From an uncultured Selenomonadales bacterium (GTDB taxonomy: Bacteria; Bacillota; Negativicutes; Selenomonadales; Selenomonadaceae), in assembly GCA_947305445.1 (NCBI GenBank), contig CAMZDU010000015.1, positions 1-10,765 on the forward strand: a stretch of DNA of 10,765 nucleotides, read 5' to 3'. Below, piece by piece: positions 1,125 to 10,590 of the stretch (the stretch's first letter is position 1; each line of letters starts with the position of its first letter). A program made the translations under genes and the position numbers. The notes below the pieces were generated by a model. It saw only the letters and a list, made by a program, of their open reading frames with translations. It was not told where the DNA came from and did no database searches.

Positions 1125-1252
1125 TTTTGAGAGCCGGTCGGGGTCGTGGTTACATCGAAATTAACCGTATCATTATCGTCGAAGTAATACACACGGAAAA
1201 AATTTTGTTGACAATCACGACAATTTGTAGGATTATACTGACGTTGAAAATT
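1109..1252 (-). other. Short open stretch that may be the 3' end of a decayed gene
   Basis: Between an in-frame TGA at 1253-1255 and a TAA at 1109-1111, one minus-strand frame is open for 47 codons. Its second half has a protein-like composition (VYYFDDNDTVNFDV followed by a Thr/Pro/Gly tail). There is no ATG and no Shine-Dalgarno; the only possible start is a GTG at about 1190 behind an A/T tract. The stop codon lies inside a GGAATTA heptad repeat, as if the repeat cut into a coding end. It also overlaps the likely promoter of the cobalamin riboswitch, so it may be chance. Nothing else coding is seen in 1067-1207. Confidence 0.15.
1208..1239 (+). promoter_or_regulatory. Probable promoter of the cobalamin riboswitch RNA
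   Basis: A perfect -35 TTGACA lies at 1208-1213. The -10 is less certain: TATACT (1234-1239) needs a long 20-nt spacer, whereas ATTATA (1232-1237) gives 18 nt. Transcription would start near 1245, just upstream of the aptamer. This suggests that the riboswitch is transcribed on its own. Confidence 0.5.
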
Positions 1253-1257
1253 TCATA

Positions 1258-1452
1258 TTGATTGGATCGAGTGGCGCAAGCCTCAATAGGGAATCCGGTC
1301 AAATGCCGGAACGGTCACGCCACCGTAGCGGGGAGCGACTCTGCATTTATGTCACTGAGGAAACTTGGGAAGGCGCAGACGAACTTTGAGCCGAAGTCGG
1401 GAGAACTGCTCGATTGACAATCGCCGTTTGACCTGCGAGCGACAGGAAGGAG
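1258..1452 (+). ncRNA. Cobalamin (B12) riboswitch, aptamer plus P13 hairpin and RBS, with no gene after it
   Basis: The RNA matches the cobalamin riboswitch consensus along its length. P1 can form between 1265-1271 and 1409-1415. The core AATAGGGAATCCGG starts at 1285, the P5 hairpin CCGG/CCGG is at 1295-1298 and 1306-1309, and ACGGTCACGCCACCGT follows. TTGGGAAGGCGCAGA is at 1365-1379. The B12 box AGTCGGGAGAACTGC is at 1395-1409 (the consensus has ACC where this has AAC). Just 3' of P1 a small hairpin, TCGC/GCGA (1421-1424/1435-1438), presents TTTGACC (1427-1433), complementary to the L5 loop region at 1297-1303. This is the kissing-loop arrangement of full-length cobalamin riboswitches. An AAGGAG Shine-Dalgarno (1447-1452) follows, so a translational expression platform is present. 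The only frames after it are about ten codons long (for example ATG 1469 to TAA 1501). The family normally turns off B12 synthesis or uptake genes when cobalamin is abundant. Confidence 0.95.
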
Positions 1453-1465
1453 ATTAATTCAATTT

Positions 1466-1492
1466 GGAATGTGGAATTGGGAATTTGAAATG
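1466..1492. repeat. Heptad tandem repeat, GGAATT type (right copy, degenerate)
   Basis: Four diverged 7-nt units with a GGAAT core (GGAATGT, GGAATTG, GGAATTT, GAAATG) start about 14 nt after the riboswitch's Shine-Dalgarno, exactly where the regulated gene should begin. The unit is the same as in the array at 1101-1124, with a different seventh base. Confidence 0.5.
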
Positions 1493-1535
1493 ATTTCGTA
1501 ATTCCATAGTCTGAAGTTTTTTGATATCCCGAACT

Positions 1536-1557
1536 GCGCCCGCGATTGGGCGTTTTT
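1536..1557 (+). terminator. Intrinsic terminator downstream of the cobalamin riboswitch
   Basis: CGCCC (1537-1541) and GGGCG (1548-1552) form a perfect 5-bp GC stem with a 6-nt loop, followed by TTTTT (1553-1557). It would end a riboswitch RNA of about 310 nt. It lies about 85 nt beyond the RBS, too far from the aptamer to be an obvious attenuator that competes with it. Confidence 0.7.
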
Positions 1558-4858: not shown

Positions 4859-6205
4859 TTGAACGCAAGAGAGATTGACATGTTGCGCGGTTCGCTGTGG
4901 GACAAAATAATTCTGTTCGCATTGCCGCTGGCATTGACGGGAGTTATGCAACAGCTTTTGAACGCGGCGGACGTGGTGACGCTGGGAAAATTTGTCGGCA
5001 AGCACGCAATGGCCGCCGTTGGAAATAATATTTCCATGGTCGGATTAATCGTAAGCCTGCTTATGGGGTTGAGTCTGGGCGCGAATGTCGTCATTGCTCA
5101 AAATATCGGCGCGAACAGAATTGACCGCGCACAATCGGCAGTAAGTACGGCATTTGTTTTGGCGGCGGCGGCGGGAATTTTTTTCTGTGTAATCGGCGAG
5201 CTGTTGGTTGCGCCGATTTTTTACTTGCTCGAAGTGCCGACAAGCGTCGTGGACATGGCGGAAAGTTACCTGCGAATTTTTCTGCTCGGTCTGCCGGCTA
5301 TGAGCCTGTACAATTTCCAAGCGGCAATTTTCCGTAGCAAAGGTGACACGCGCACGCCGTTAATCGCACTGGCAACCGCAAGCGGCATAAATATTTTGCT
5401 GAACCTGCTGTTCGTGCTGGAGTTTGATTGGGGAATTGAGGGCGTTGCGGCGGCTACGGTTCTTGCCAACGTCGTCAGCGCGATAATTTTGTTCATCGAA
5501 CTTCTTCACGCCGAAGGAGTAATAAAACTTCACCCGAACGCGCTGATTGTCGAGCGCGACGAGCTGTTCGAGATTTTGCGAATTGGTTTGCCGGCCGGAG
5601 TGCAAGGCATGGTCTTTTCGCTGTCGAATTTGCTGATTCAAGCGGCGATAAACGCTCTCGGCGCGGACGCAATGGCGGCTTCGGCGGCGGCCTTCACGAT
5701 TGAAATTAACGTCTTCTGCGTCGTCAACGGCTTCGGACAAGCGGCCACGACCTTTGTCGGACAAAATTACGGCGCGGGAAATTTGCCTCGTTGCAAGCGC
5801 GTGACGTGGACGGCGATGGGCTTGAGTGCGCTGTTTATGCAAACGCTGTGCTTTGTGATTTTGTTCTTCGCCGAAGAAATTTTGAGCCTGTTTAACACCG
5901 ACCCCGAAGTCATACGGCTGGGCGTGATTCGTTTATGGTACATTGTCGCGCCGGAAATAATTAACGTGGCAATGGAAGGATTATCGGGAGCATTGCGCGG
6001 CTACGGCATCTCGCTTACACCGGCGGTGATAACTCTGATTTGCGTGTGCGGAGTGCGCGTGGCGTGGATATTCACGGCTTTTGCAAAAATTCCAACGTAT
6101 GCAACGCTAATGGCAGTCTACCCGATAAGCTGGTTTATCACAACGATTGTGTTAATCGCGGCGTACTCGTACCACATGAAACGCCTTAAGCCCGCACGGA
6201 AATAA
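4859..6205 (+). CDS. MATE-family (MatE) multidrug/cation efflux transporter
   Basis: MATE proteins export drugs or metabolites in exchange for Na+ or H+ across the cytoplasmic membrane. The 448-residue product is highly hydrophobic with about 12 predicted membrane helices in two MatE halves. Typical pieces are GSLWDKIILFALPLALTGVMQQLLNAADVV near the N-terminus, LGKFVGKHAMAAVG, LSLGANVVIAQNIGA, FRSKGDTRTPL between helices 5 and 6 and, in the second half, GFGQAATTFVGQNYGAGN and SGALRGYGIS. It belongs with the NorM/DinF/YpnP-like group; the substrate cannot be told from sequence. TTG at 4859 is preferred as start because GGAGG lies 7 nt before it; the ATG at 4880 (MLRGSLW) is the alternative, with only a weak site. 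It is divergent from ftsZ and convergent with the glycosyltransferase-like gene, so it is a single-gene unit. No neighbouring regulator is seen. Confidence 0.92.
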   Translation: MNAREIDMLRGSLWDKIILFALPLALTGVMQQLLNAADVVTLGKFVGKHAMAAVGNNISMVGLIVSLLMGLSLGANVVIAQNIGANRIDRAQSAVSTAFVLAAAAGIFFCVIGELLVAPIFYLLEVPTSVVDMAESYLRIFLLGLPAMSLYNFQAAIFRSKGDTRTPLIALATASGINILLNLLFVLEFDWGIEGVAAATVLANVVSAIILFIELLHAEGVIKLHPNALIVERDELFEILRIGLPAGVQGMVFSLSNLLIQAAINALGADAMAASAAAFTIEINVFCVVNGFGQAATTFVGQNYGAGNLPRCKRVTWTAMGLSALFMQTLCFVILFFAEEILSLFNTDPEVIRLGVIRLWYIVAPEIINVAMEGLSGALRGYGISLTPAVITLICVCGVRVAWIFTAFAKIPTYATLMAVYPISWFITTIVLIAAYSYHMKRLKPARK

Positions 6206-7854: not shown

Positions 7855-7883
7855 ATTGTAGACTGATTGCCAACCGAATGCAA
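7855..7883 (-). promoter_or_regulatory. Probable promoter of the glycosyltransferase-like gene
   Basis: On the minus strand TTGCAT (7883-7878), a 17-nt spacer and TACAAT (7860-7855). The leader to the GTG at 7825 is about 22 nt and contains the GGGAGG site. It is divergent from the argGH promoter; their -35 boxes are only 13 nt apart. Confidence 0.6.
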
Positions 7884-7896
7884 GCCGCCGCCCAAA

Positions 7897-7925
7897 TTGA
7901 CAAGCTCCAAGCGCGAAGGTAAAAT
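7897..7925 (+). promoter_or_regulatory. Probable strong promoter of argGH
   Basis: A perfect TTGACA (7897-7902), exactly 17 nt, then TAAAAT (7920-7925). The start point near 7932 leaves a short leader with AAAGGAG (7942-7948). I see at most one ArgR-like half site (TGAAT on the minus strand at 7933-7929), not a full ARG box. Confidence 0.7.
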
Positions 7926-7956
7926 ACAATTCATTACTTGCAAAGGAGATAATCAC

Positions 7957-10590
7957 ATGAAGGACACAGTTAAAAAGGTAGCACTGGCTTATAGCGGCGG
8001 GCTTGATACGTCGGTTATCATTCCGTGGCTCAAGGAGAATTACGGCTGCGAAGTCATAGCGGTTTGCGCGGACGTCGGACAGGGCGACGAACTTAACGTA
8101 GTTCACGACAAAGCACTTAAGTCCGGCGCGTCGAAAGTTTTCATCGCCGACCTGACAAAAGATTTTATCGAAAATTACATCTTCCCCACGCTCAAAGCCA
8201 GCGCGACTTACGAGGAGAAGTATTTGCTCGGAACGTCGTTTGCTCGTCCGATTATCGCTAAAAAACTCGTCGAGATTGCGCTTGCCGAAGGTTGCGACGC
8301 CGTCGCTCACGGCGCGACCGGCAAAGGCAACGACCAGGTTCGTTTCGAGCTGACGGTTAAAGCTCTGGCTCCCGAACTGAAAATTATTGCTCCGTGGCGC
8401 GAGTGGGAACTTGACAGCCGTGAATCTGAGATTGAGTACGCGAAGGCGCACGACATTCCCATTCCGACCGCGAACAAAACTTACAGCATGGACAGGAATA
8501 TTTGGCACCTGTCGCACGAAGGTTCCGACTTGGAAGACCCGTGGAACGCGCCGCAAAATAAAATGTTCCTCATCAGCTGTGCGCCCGAAGATGCGCCCGA
8601 CAAGGCCGAAGAAATTTCCGTCGACTTCGAGCGTGGCATTCCCGTTGCCGTCAACGGCGAGAAACTCGGCTCCGTCGAACTCGTCACCAAACTCAACGAA
8701 CTCGGCGCACGCAACGGCGTCGGCATTGTCGACATCTGCGAAAATCGTCTTGTCGGCATGAAGAGCCGCGGCGTTTACGAAAATCCTGCCGGCTCCATTC
8801 TCTACTACGCGCACCGCGAACTTGAATATCTGTGCCTCGACCGTGCGACGTTCCATTTTAAACAGCACGTTGCCGTTAAGTACGGCGAATTGGTTTACGA
8901 CGGCATGTGGTTCTGTCAACTGCGCGAGGCTCTGGCGGCGTTCGTCGACGAAACTCAGCAGACCGTCACGGGCACCGTCAAGCTTAAGCTCTACAAAGGC
9001 AACATAATTTCCGCCGGAGCGAAGTCGCCGTATTCGCTTTACAGTCAGGAGTTCGTGACGTTCGAGCACGACGACGTTTACAATCAGGCCGACGCAACGG
9101 GCTTTATCAATCTGCTTGCCGCTGAAAGTTCGTGCGCTGGTGAACAAAAAATGACAACTCGCAAAAAATCTGTCCCCACCTCCAACAGTCAAGGCTCCGG
9201 CGAAAAACTTTGGGGCGGCCGCTTCGAGAAGTCGACCGACGAGATGATTAACGACTTTCAAGCGTCTATTAACTTCGACAAGCGCATGTACCGCGAAGAT
9301 ATTTCCGGCTCGATTGTTCACGCGAAAATGCTTGCCGCGCAGGGAATTATCTCCGCCGACGACGCGAAAAAAATTTGCGCGGGCTTGAAAAAAATTTTGG
9401 AGCAGATTGACGCCGGTAAGTTTGAATTCAGCGTTGCGCTTGAAGATATTCACATGAACGTTGAGAAGGCGTTGACCGATTCGATTGGCGCGGCGGGCGG
9501 ACGACTTCACACTGCACGCAGCCGCAACGATCAAGTCGCGCTCGACACTCATCTTTACATGCGCCGTCAAGTTCGCGAAGTGCAACGCTTGATTCTCGAA
9601 TTGCAAAATGAACTTATTAAAGCCGCCGAAAAAAATCGCGACGTGATTATGCCGGGTTATACGCACCTGCAACGCGCCCAGCCGATATTGTTCGCGCATC
9701 ACCTGCTGGCGTATTTTTCAATGTTGCAACGAGACTTCGACAGGTTCGAGGGCGTTTACACTCGCGCCGACATAATGCCGCTCGGAGCGGGTGCATTGGC
9801 CGGCACGACGCTTCCGATTGACCGCGAATTTGTTGCACGGGAGCTGAACTTCGGCGCACTCTACTCCAACAGCTTGGACGCAGTCAGCGACAGAGATTAC
9901 CTGCTGGAATTCTTATCGGCGGCGTCAATTTTGATGGTGCACCTGTCGCGGTTCAGCGAGGAAATAATTTTGTGGTGCAGTCGCGAATTTTCATTCGTGG
10001 AACTCGACGACGCGCACTGCACAGGCTCGTCAATGATGCCGCAGAAAAAAAATCCCGACGTGCCCGAACTCGTACGCGGCAAAACCGGACGCGTCATCGG
10101 ACACTTGACGGCACTTTTGACGACGGTAAAGGCTCTGCCGCTCGCTTACAACAAAGATTTGCAGGAGGACAAGGAAGGCCTCTTCGACGCGCTCGACACG
10201 GTGAAATTTTCGCTGGCGGTCTTCGCGCAGATTATCGCGGACATGAAAGTTCGTCGTGCCAACATGCGCCGCGCCGTTGAAGAAGATTTTTCAAACGCCA
10301 CCGACTTGGCCGACTACCTTGTCAAAAAAAATTTGCCGTTCCGTCCCGCGCACGCGGTCGCCGGCAAACTTGTCCGCCACTGCATAAAACGCGGCGTCTA
10401 TCTGAAGGATTTGTCGCTCGACGAATTCAAAAAATTTTCGCCGATGTTCGATGCCGACATTCACAACGCAATCAAGCCGGAGACTTGTGTCGCCGCTCGA
10501 AATTCTCTCGGCGGCACTTCGCCGCAACAAGTCGACGCGCAAATCTTTGCCGCGCACGAGTGGCTTAAGAATCATGAGCATAAAAATTAA
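7957..10590 (+). CDS. argGH: Fused argininosuccinate synthase-argininosuccinate lyase (ArgG-ArgH)
   Basis: One 877-residue chain carries the last two steps of arginine synthesis: citrulline + aspartate + ATP to argininosuccinate, then cleavage to arginine and fumarate. ArgG part, about 1-387: PP-loop YSGGLDTS (12-19), [25 protein letters not shown] (118-131) and the [11 protein letters not shown] ending (376-386). A linker of about 30 residues rich in Ser, Thr, Lys, Gly and Gln follows (388-416). ArgH part, 417-877: [14 protein letters not shown] at its start, HTARSRNDQ (518-526), [10 protein letters not shown] with His570 as the likely catalytic acid, and the superfamily signature [11 protein letters not shown] (690-700). 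Both parts have normal family length (about 400 and 460) and intact key residues, so both activities are expected. An internal ATG (9151, Met399) has no Shine-Dalgarno. ATG 7957 follows AAAGGAG by 8 nt; upstream in-frame codons overlap the promoter. No stop or frameshift interrupts the junction. Confidence 0.96.

Follow-up and report, generated by a model that had tools for sequence, protein, structure and literature searches.

Here we report that a cobalamin riboswitch lacking a gene, in the genome of an uncultured Selenomonadales bacterium, most probably gates the completion of a trans-acting small RNA (sRNA), which by its sequence would pair with the leaders of B12 genes. Comparative sequence analysis establishes the conservation of this gene-less unit, its complementarity to the leaders and its co-variation with them. 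The stretch of DNA analysed (hereafter the window; 10,765 nt) is contig 15 of a metagenome-assembled genome (MAG) of 1.53 Mb, which comprises 300 contigs and is 68.7% complete. Comparison was with 60 congeneric genomes, a set that includes the own genome (G000); the genus, a member of Negativicutes, is very probably Quinella.

Covariance-model search (cmscan) revealed a cobalamin riboswitch aptamer (RF00174) at 1252-1427 of the plus strand, where all the elements described below also lie. The match spanned the full model (1-189) and scored 79.4 bits (E 1.1e-18) as compared to a gathering score of 31.5, and it was the sole cobalamin riboswitch found in the whole assembly. A promoter-like site, TTGACA-17-GATTAT, was detected at 1208-1236 by consensus scan, which returned 4 such sites in 761 bases as compared to a mean of 1.2 in shuffles, and transcription may start near 1243. 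The L5 segment TCAAA (1299-1303) is complementary to TTTGA (1427-1431) in the loop of a putative P13/L13 hairpin, TCGC-CGTTTGACCT-GCGA (1421-1438), the stem of which was assigned by eye; a kissing loop between L5 and L13 is proposed from this sequence complementarity alone. The motif AAGGAG is present within ACAGGAAGGAGATT (1442-1455). The intact aptamer, promoter, L5-to-P13 complementarity and AAGGAG site of the original prediction are thus borne out. According to the part of PMC9600662 drawn on here, the cobalamin riboswitches of Negativicutes are predominantly promiscuous for cobamides, so that one or another of several cobamides may be the ligand.

The unit, comprising the B12 box, a hairpin and a conserved antisense element (the seed) but no gene, was found at 50 loci in 49 of the 60 genomes. 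A script searching for box plus seed yielded 46 of these loci, and 4 with diverged seeds were added from the riboswitch search; G048 has a further copy (L417), which is not counted among the 50. An RF00174 match lay directly 5' of the unit in 47 of the 49 genomes, G009 and G011 being cut by contig ends. Mainly two kinds of sequence follow the riboswitches of the relatives, namely an ABC permease gene or the gene-less tail. The permease is of the nickel/peptide type (one tested, L032: NF045470, 381 bits as compared to a cut-off of 350). The 11 genomes without the unit include G002 and G008, where a riboswitch precedes cbiK. No riboswitch was found by the search in G001, G010, G022 and G067, nor in G068, which nevertheless has a cbiK site; G041 has a riboswitch of the transporter type only, G019 and G042 are about 60% complete, and the G056 contig stops immediately behind its riboswitch.

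With the 17-nt seed as an exact query, 96 stretches were obtained from a collection of 84,980 species, and 80 of these were listed. Among these 80 of 96 matches, 44 had a B12 box just upstream and all 44 were titled Negativicutes, their titles naming Selenomonadaceae/Selenomonadales MAGs, Quinella, Anaerovibrio lipolyticus, A. slackiae, Megamonas sp. UBA and others. Seven further listed hits were from Negativicutes: four targets in cbiK leaders (L157, L161, L200, L201), an sRNA with a long linker (L170), a site near a contig end (L207) and a Schwartzia locus with the box further off (L221). The box was present in none of the 29 listed hits with other or unspecific titles, as chance matches would give. 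A B12-controlled RNA, one of the two outcomes originally envisaged, is therefore strongly supported by comparison, the unit being kept not only in 49 of the 60 genomes but also in other genera. Two variations of the locus were also seen. In G079 (record titled Megamonas sp. UBA1799; L370/L388), seed-bearing tails lie in tandem about 300 nt apart, one copy with a one-base change in the seed. In one clade (L028, L033, L038, L425), a glutamine synthetase-like gene, checked with PF00120 for L028 only, lies about 230-260 nt behind the riboswitch, past the second terminator.

Terminator 1 (1534-1557), consisting of a hairpin at 1536-1553 and a T run, has equivalents in the relatives and is probably, on sequence grounds, a B12-controlled attenuator rather than the 3' end of the RNA. 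Consensus scanning found 3 terminator-like sites as compared to a mean of 1.2 in shuffles, so the hairpin is a weak indication on its own. However, a hairpin followed by a T run was present between the B12 box and the seed at all 50 loci. The arm TGCGAGCGACAGGA (1434-1447), which overlaps the 3' side of P13, can form a duplex with the 5' arm of terminator 1 (-17.5 kcal/mol in the window) and is a candidate antiterminator. The own arm paired better than the mean of shuffled arms at 48/50 loci. Own pairs of arm and terminator averaged -17.1 kcal/mol as compared to -15.8 kcal/mol for swapped pairs, a difference reached in none of 5,000 permutations, which like all permutation and Fisher tests here ignore the relatedness between genomes; the test is flattered because the best-pairing hairpin was chosen wherever one locus had several. 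The stretch 1420-1562 of the window folds with a z of -3.1. At the level of sequence and pairing, the locus thus combines a riboswitch, an intrinsic terminator and a competing antiterminator with the lack of a gene.

Beyond the attenuator, a conserved tail (about 1573-1669) carries the seed between hairpins and is closed by a second terminator. A hairpin, TCCCCG-TCA-CGGGGA (1585-1599), was seen 5' of the seed in the fold and in the alignment of 28 clade-A sequences, with G020 lacking it. The seed itself, CATTGCTCATACATTTC, occupies 17 nt (1602-1618) and was defined by conservation and folds; matches within 2 mismatches occurred in 51 of the 60 genomes, target sites counted too. It is followed by the extension TTGCTGAGGAAATCAGC (1621-1637), which forms a hairpin in the fold and co-varies with cbiK leaders, and by terminator 2, CTCCCGCTCGTTTGGCAGGAG-A-TTTTTTTT (1640-1669), the putative 3' end of the sRNA. 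Terminator 2 is supported by the fold and the clade-A tail alignment and was not among the sites found by the consensus terminator scan. Positions 1609-1618 of the seed were unpaired in both the single and the consensus fold. In the consensus fold of the 28 clade-A sequences, 1602 and 1604-1608 were paired with 1573-1577 and 1581; since 6 of 17 seed bases are engaged, this stem would have to be opened for a target to pair. The tail alone did not fold better than shuffles (z -1.2, 21/200 shuffles as good). Since the conserved tail reaches about 1669 with a terminator of its own, the complete RNA would measure about 430 nt. The RNA of about 310 nt ending at 1557, as originally predicted, would stand as the B12-terminated form and not as the full RNA.

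The linker from attenuator to seed varies up to several hundred bases, with insertions in several genomes (418 nt from box to seed in G055), so the tail may have an independent promoter. Repeat-like AATTAGGAATTAGGAATT or AATGCGTAATGCGTAATG tracts are present in the window at 1098-1124 and 1458-1512; tracts of this type also occur in the linkers of L039, L036 and L035 and in some cbiK leaders, and the unit is not destroyed by them. Of 21 genomes of the genus, 17 have an Hfq match exceeding the cut-off; none was found in G000, which is 68.7% complete.

The claim that no gene follows the switch was upheld. No plus-strand frame of at least 20 aa starts between 1428 and terminator 1. A 30-aa frame starts inside the aptamer and stops at 1457, and the remaining plus-strand frames up to 4784 all overlap minus-strand genes. 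A TTG-started frame of 67 aa (1546-1749) starts inside the terminator 1 hairpin and crosses the conserved tail. It was tried as a small protein and rejected, because by eye the relatives use different frames across the same stretch, reading for example GIAHTFPLLRNQ, CSYISLLRNQ or ALLIHFFAEES. A search for a phage origin gave no match. Farther along the window, a 907-aa plus-strand frame (7867-10590) appeared by eye to be ArgG (argininosuccinate synthase) fused to ArgH (argininosuccinate lyase).

Searching the 60 genomes with the seed, allowing up to 2 mismatches, gave 143 matches as compared to 10 for the reversed pattern. Besides the sRNAs themselves, many of these were reverse complements in mRNA leaders. 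The cbiK target encodes a secreted CbiK-family chelatase (PF06180, 246 bits, above cut-off; below cut-off with the NCBIfam CbiK model). The mutA target, with the seed site at its start codon, encodes methylmalonyl-CoA mutase (PF01642, 511 bits, above cut-off; below cut-off, as a partial frame, with the NCBIfam mutase models). The third is cbiL, and CbiL of the own genome matched TIGR01467 with 238.5 bits as compared to a cut-off of 163.25. Single-case targets were a periplasmic binding protein (L137, PF01497), a B12-binding radical SAM protein (L382, TIGR03960) and a corrin methyltransferase-like gene of A. slackiae (L381, PF00590); cbiL-like leader targets were found in A. slackiae (L372, PF00590) and in An883 (L373, by eye). 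Matches inside reading frames (L111, L140, L141, L357-L359 and others) were dropped by eye as probable chance. An own-genome match with 2 mismatches (C22) was discarded as a target, since it is in sense orientation inside a frame that by eye resembles an EcfT-like transporter part. Three further own-genome matches had 3 mismatches each.

We compared the pairing energy of each leader with that of 72 control gene starts. This comparison covered 43 cbiK and 44 mutA leaders, with four later-added sRNA loci sitting among the genomes counted as without sRNA. The cbiK leader was better than all 72 controls in 39/43 sRNA genomes, and the mutA start in 44/44. However, the mutA start also beat all controls in 13 of the 14 genomes that were at that stage listed as lacking the sRNA, some of which later proved to carry it. 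The start-codon match of mutA was therefore judged weak when taken alone, and it is partly due to the MS(N/D) coding start. The cbiL leader was better than all controls in 24 of 45 sRNA genomes and not in the other 21, as compared to 4/10 genomes without a found sRNA (G002, G019, G042 and G056, three of them incomplete or cut). In the own genome, the cbiL leader (G000 contig 178; core 61 nt before the ATG) paired with -17.2 kcal/mol and the mutA start with -15.2 kcal/mol, and in each case 0/72 controls were as good. No cbiK gene was found in the own genome; as this assembly is incomplete, the strongest target is documented in relatives only. A cbiK site was present in 41 of 46 genomes with the sRNA as compared to 2 of 7 without (p 0.0015, relatedness ignored). 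Among genomes with the sRNA, no such site was found in G007, G049, G054, G057 and G062, and G065 is truncated by the end of its contig. A second CbiK-like gene of G049 does have a site in front of it.

The sequence 3' of the seed varies by clade, and the cbiK leaders vary in step. In the clade of the window, TTGCTGAGG of the seed extension is complementary to the CCTCAGCAA-type strand of cbiK leaders. The corresponding pairs are GCCGAGGA and TCCTCGGC in G020, AAGTTAAGGGCG and CGCCCTTAACTT in G018 and G050, and CAAATTGCCGG and CCGGCAATTTG in G053. When sRNAs and cbiK leaders were swapped between genomes, mean pairing dropped from -18.1 kcal/mol for own to -12.6 kcal/mol for swapped pairs, and 0 of 20,000 permutations reached the own value (n=41). 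Own pairing was better than mean swapped pairing in 36/41; in G043 and G074 the own cbiK leader fitted no better than others. Of 47 sRNA loci for which a cbiK leader was available, the swap used 41 (G007, G049, G054, G057, G062 and G065 omitted for want of a site), and G051 was classed as 'other' by the script rule though clade-A-like. Complementarity to leaders beyond that of control genes and co-variation, by which a trans-acting sRNA is recognised, are thus both present.

The same strand of cbiK leaders pairs in cis with the region of the ribosome site, with -12.4 kcal/mol for own as compared to -9.5 kcal/mol for swapped pairs (0/5,000 permutations, n=44). Masking this strand opened the ribosome site in 40 of 44 models, and by at least 0.3 in 21/44 as compared to 14/72 controls. 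Thus, activation of cbiK by the sRNA is expected. In cbiL leaders, masking of the site gave no consistent change in access to the ribosome site (mean 0.50 to 0.55, n=27), so we claim no direction for cbiL. In the case of mutA, a second block of the tail, GCGAAAAGT (1574-1582), is complementary to ACTTTTCGC located 41-49 nt before the start. ACTTTTCGC was present in the mutA leader at 26/28 loci when the sRNA has the block and at 0/20 when it has not (Fisher p 1.4e-11); elsewhere, this 9-mer turned up 9 times in 809 kb, both strands counted. Because the two mutA blocks follow one another in parallel order in sRNA and leader, they cannot both take part in one continuous duplex.

The motif shared by riboswitch tail and targets could also be the DNA site of a B12-responsive transcription factor, being located upstream of B12 genes. 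However, sRNA and counted mRNA sites are in opposite orientation, the latter fall either on the start codon or within what are presumed to be 5' UTRs, the flanks change by clade yet remain complementary, and the strand concerned in cbiK leaders is the one that pairs in cis with the ribosome site. This makes a DNA site very unlikely.

It is highly improbable that the read-through RNA serves as antisense to the convergent ahbB/ahbA genes (minus strand, 1703-2653), in the way AspocR is thought to act on pocR. The arrangement is suggestive, as ahbB ends at 1703, 34 nt beyond terminator 2, and both genes belong to tetrapyrrole metabolism. But terminator 2 comes before ahbB, and the gene neighbours of the unit vary between genomes (by eye). 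When eight window proteins were sought in 26 loci around riboswitches of both kinds, none was found, while the positive control worked; and in G015 some 21 kb separate ahbB from the unit. The products of 1703-2653 themselves matched NF040707 and NF040708 above cut-off as the siroheme decarboxylase subunits AhbB and AhbA, and AhbB relatives were found in 56 of the 60 genomes.

The alternative outcome originally envisaged, that a recent deletion removed the regulated gene while the aptamer has so far escaped decay, is hardly tenable. It would account for the lack of a recognisable gene after the switch in the window, and a gene directly after the switch in a relative, named beforehand as the mark of a mere remnant, does occur: in G002 (L042, about 5000-5295) and G008 (L347) a cobalamin riboswitch lies immediately 5' of cbiK. 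The contig of G008 starts inside the riboswitch, leaving the 3' part only, beyond the reach of RF00174. No sRNA tail was found in G002 or G008, so we read them as carrying a cis version of the same control and not as evidence for a remnant; cis and trans control of cbiK have apparently been exchanged in evolution. A recent loss is not supported, because the gene-less unit is kept with the same tail across the genus and in other genera, and a remnant would not be expected to have a seed, a second terminator and co-variation with unlinked mRNA leaders.

That the RNA sequesters an ANTAR antiterminator protein, the precedent first offered on the model of EutX and Rli55, is scarcely credible: the layout of B12 riboswitch, terminator and RNA tail is the same in the part of PMC8079631 on Rli55, and a below-cut-off ANTAR match was seen in 4/21 genomes, but the most conserved part of the tail is a linear seed complementary to B12-gene leaders, the predicted tail fold is without a pair of hexaloop hairpins, and no ANTAR protein was above cut-off in the 21 genomes (a weak point, as 14 control genomes also gave 0).

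For the gated sRNA, the transcription, the response to B12 and the direction of each effect are given here as we infer them. When B12 is bound, P13 and the L5-L13 contact would hold the antiterminator arm, terminator 1 would form, and only the leader of about 310 nt would be made. When B12 is lacking, the arm could pair with the 5' side of terminator 1, and transcription would read through to terminator 2, yielding the full seed-bearing RNA (about 430 nt). This seed, together with the extension 3' of it, may then pair with the leaders of B12 genes. In cbiK, this would cover the strand hiding the ribosome site and turn translation on; in mutA, it would cover the start codon, probably repressing the B12-dependent mutase; and the site in the cbiL leader may be used as well. 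We lean, with modest confidence, to the wider reading that one gated sRNA runs the whole B12 economy in trans, low B12 turning the supply through cbiK on and the demand of methylmalonyl-CoA mutase off, and that some species have swapped this trans circuit for cis control of cbiK. In rumen Selenomonadaceae, the hosts of the unit, propionate is expected to be formed via the B12-dependent mutase. Because the unit occurs in records whose titles name Anaerovibrio strains, the proposal is testable. If it holds, the persistence of an orphan riboswitch would be explained by an output that is RNA, and one sensor may manage both B12 supply and demand in trans.

To our knowledge, most riboswitches act on their own RNA, and the few that make regulatory RNAs hit one protein or one gene. 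EutX of Enterococcus is a non-coding RNA terminated by a B12 riboswitch and completed only when B12 is scarce. Similarly, in the part of PMC8079631 drawn on here, a B12 riboswitch and terminator control the gene-less regulatory RNA Rli55 of Listeria, which is completed only at scarce B12. The present locus shares with both a cobalamin riboswitch and a downstream terminator controlling a gene-less RNA; in contrast, EutX and Rli55 sequester the ANTAR protein EutV, whereas here an antisense seed faces several mRNAs. The same text describes AspocR of Listeria as an RNA attenuated by a B12 riboswitch and thought to base-pair with the adjacent pocR (PMC8079631), so that, as far as these passages go, B12 riboswitches attenuating regulatory RNAs (AspocR, Rli55) are already known. 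AspocR resembles the present RNA in being attenuated by a B12 riboswitch and thought to pair, but it has one adjacent target, whereas here there are several unlinked targets and a short conserved seed; nor is the unit antisense to a neighbouring regulated gene, as its neighbours differ between relatives. The Listeria SAM riboswitches SreA and SreB, again in the passages of PMC8079631 used, pair in trans with the leader of prfA mRNA. Trans pairing of a riboswitch-derived RNA with an mRNA leader is thus common to both, but in SreA/SreB, as described there, the terminated ligand-bound switch is itself the sRNA and leads an operon, whereas here the pairing part stands behind the attenuator and there is no gene. 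In E. coli, a separate riboswitch and the sRNA OmrA both act on btuB mRNA, according to the part of PMC11162775 consulted. That case likewise joins a riboswitch and an sRNA on a B12 gene; here, in contrast, the riboswitch would gate the sRNA. In the open-access literature searched, we recognised no sRNA that is gated by a riboswitch and directs a conserved seed at several B12 genes unlinked to it. RyhB-type sRNAs spare a cofactor and DsrA/RNAIII-type sRNAs open leaders, both being switched by protein regulators. The logic proposed here is alike, in that users of a scarce cofactor would be repressed and a hidden ribosome site freed, but the protein regulators are replaced by a riboswitch in the same RNA. 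The output gated by the riboswitch of the window seems to be a dedicated antisense sRNA aimed at several unlinked B12-related genes; if so, it would be a metabolite-switched counterpart of the cofactor-sparing sRNAs in bacteria.
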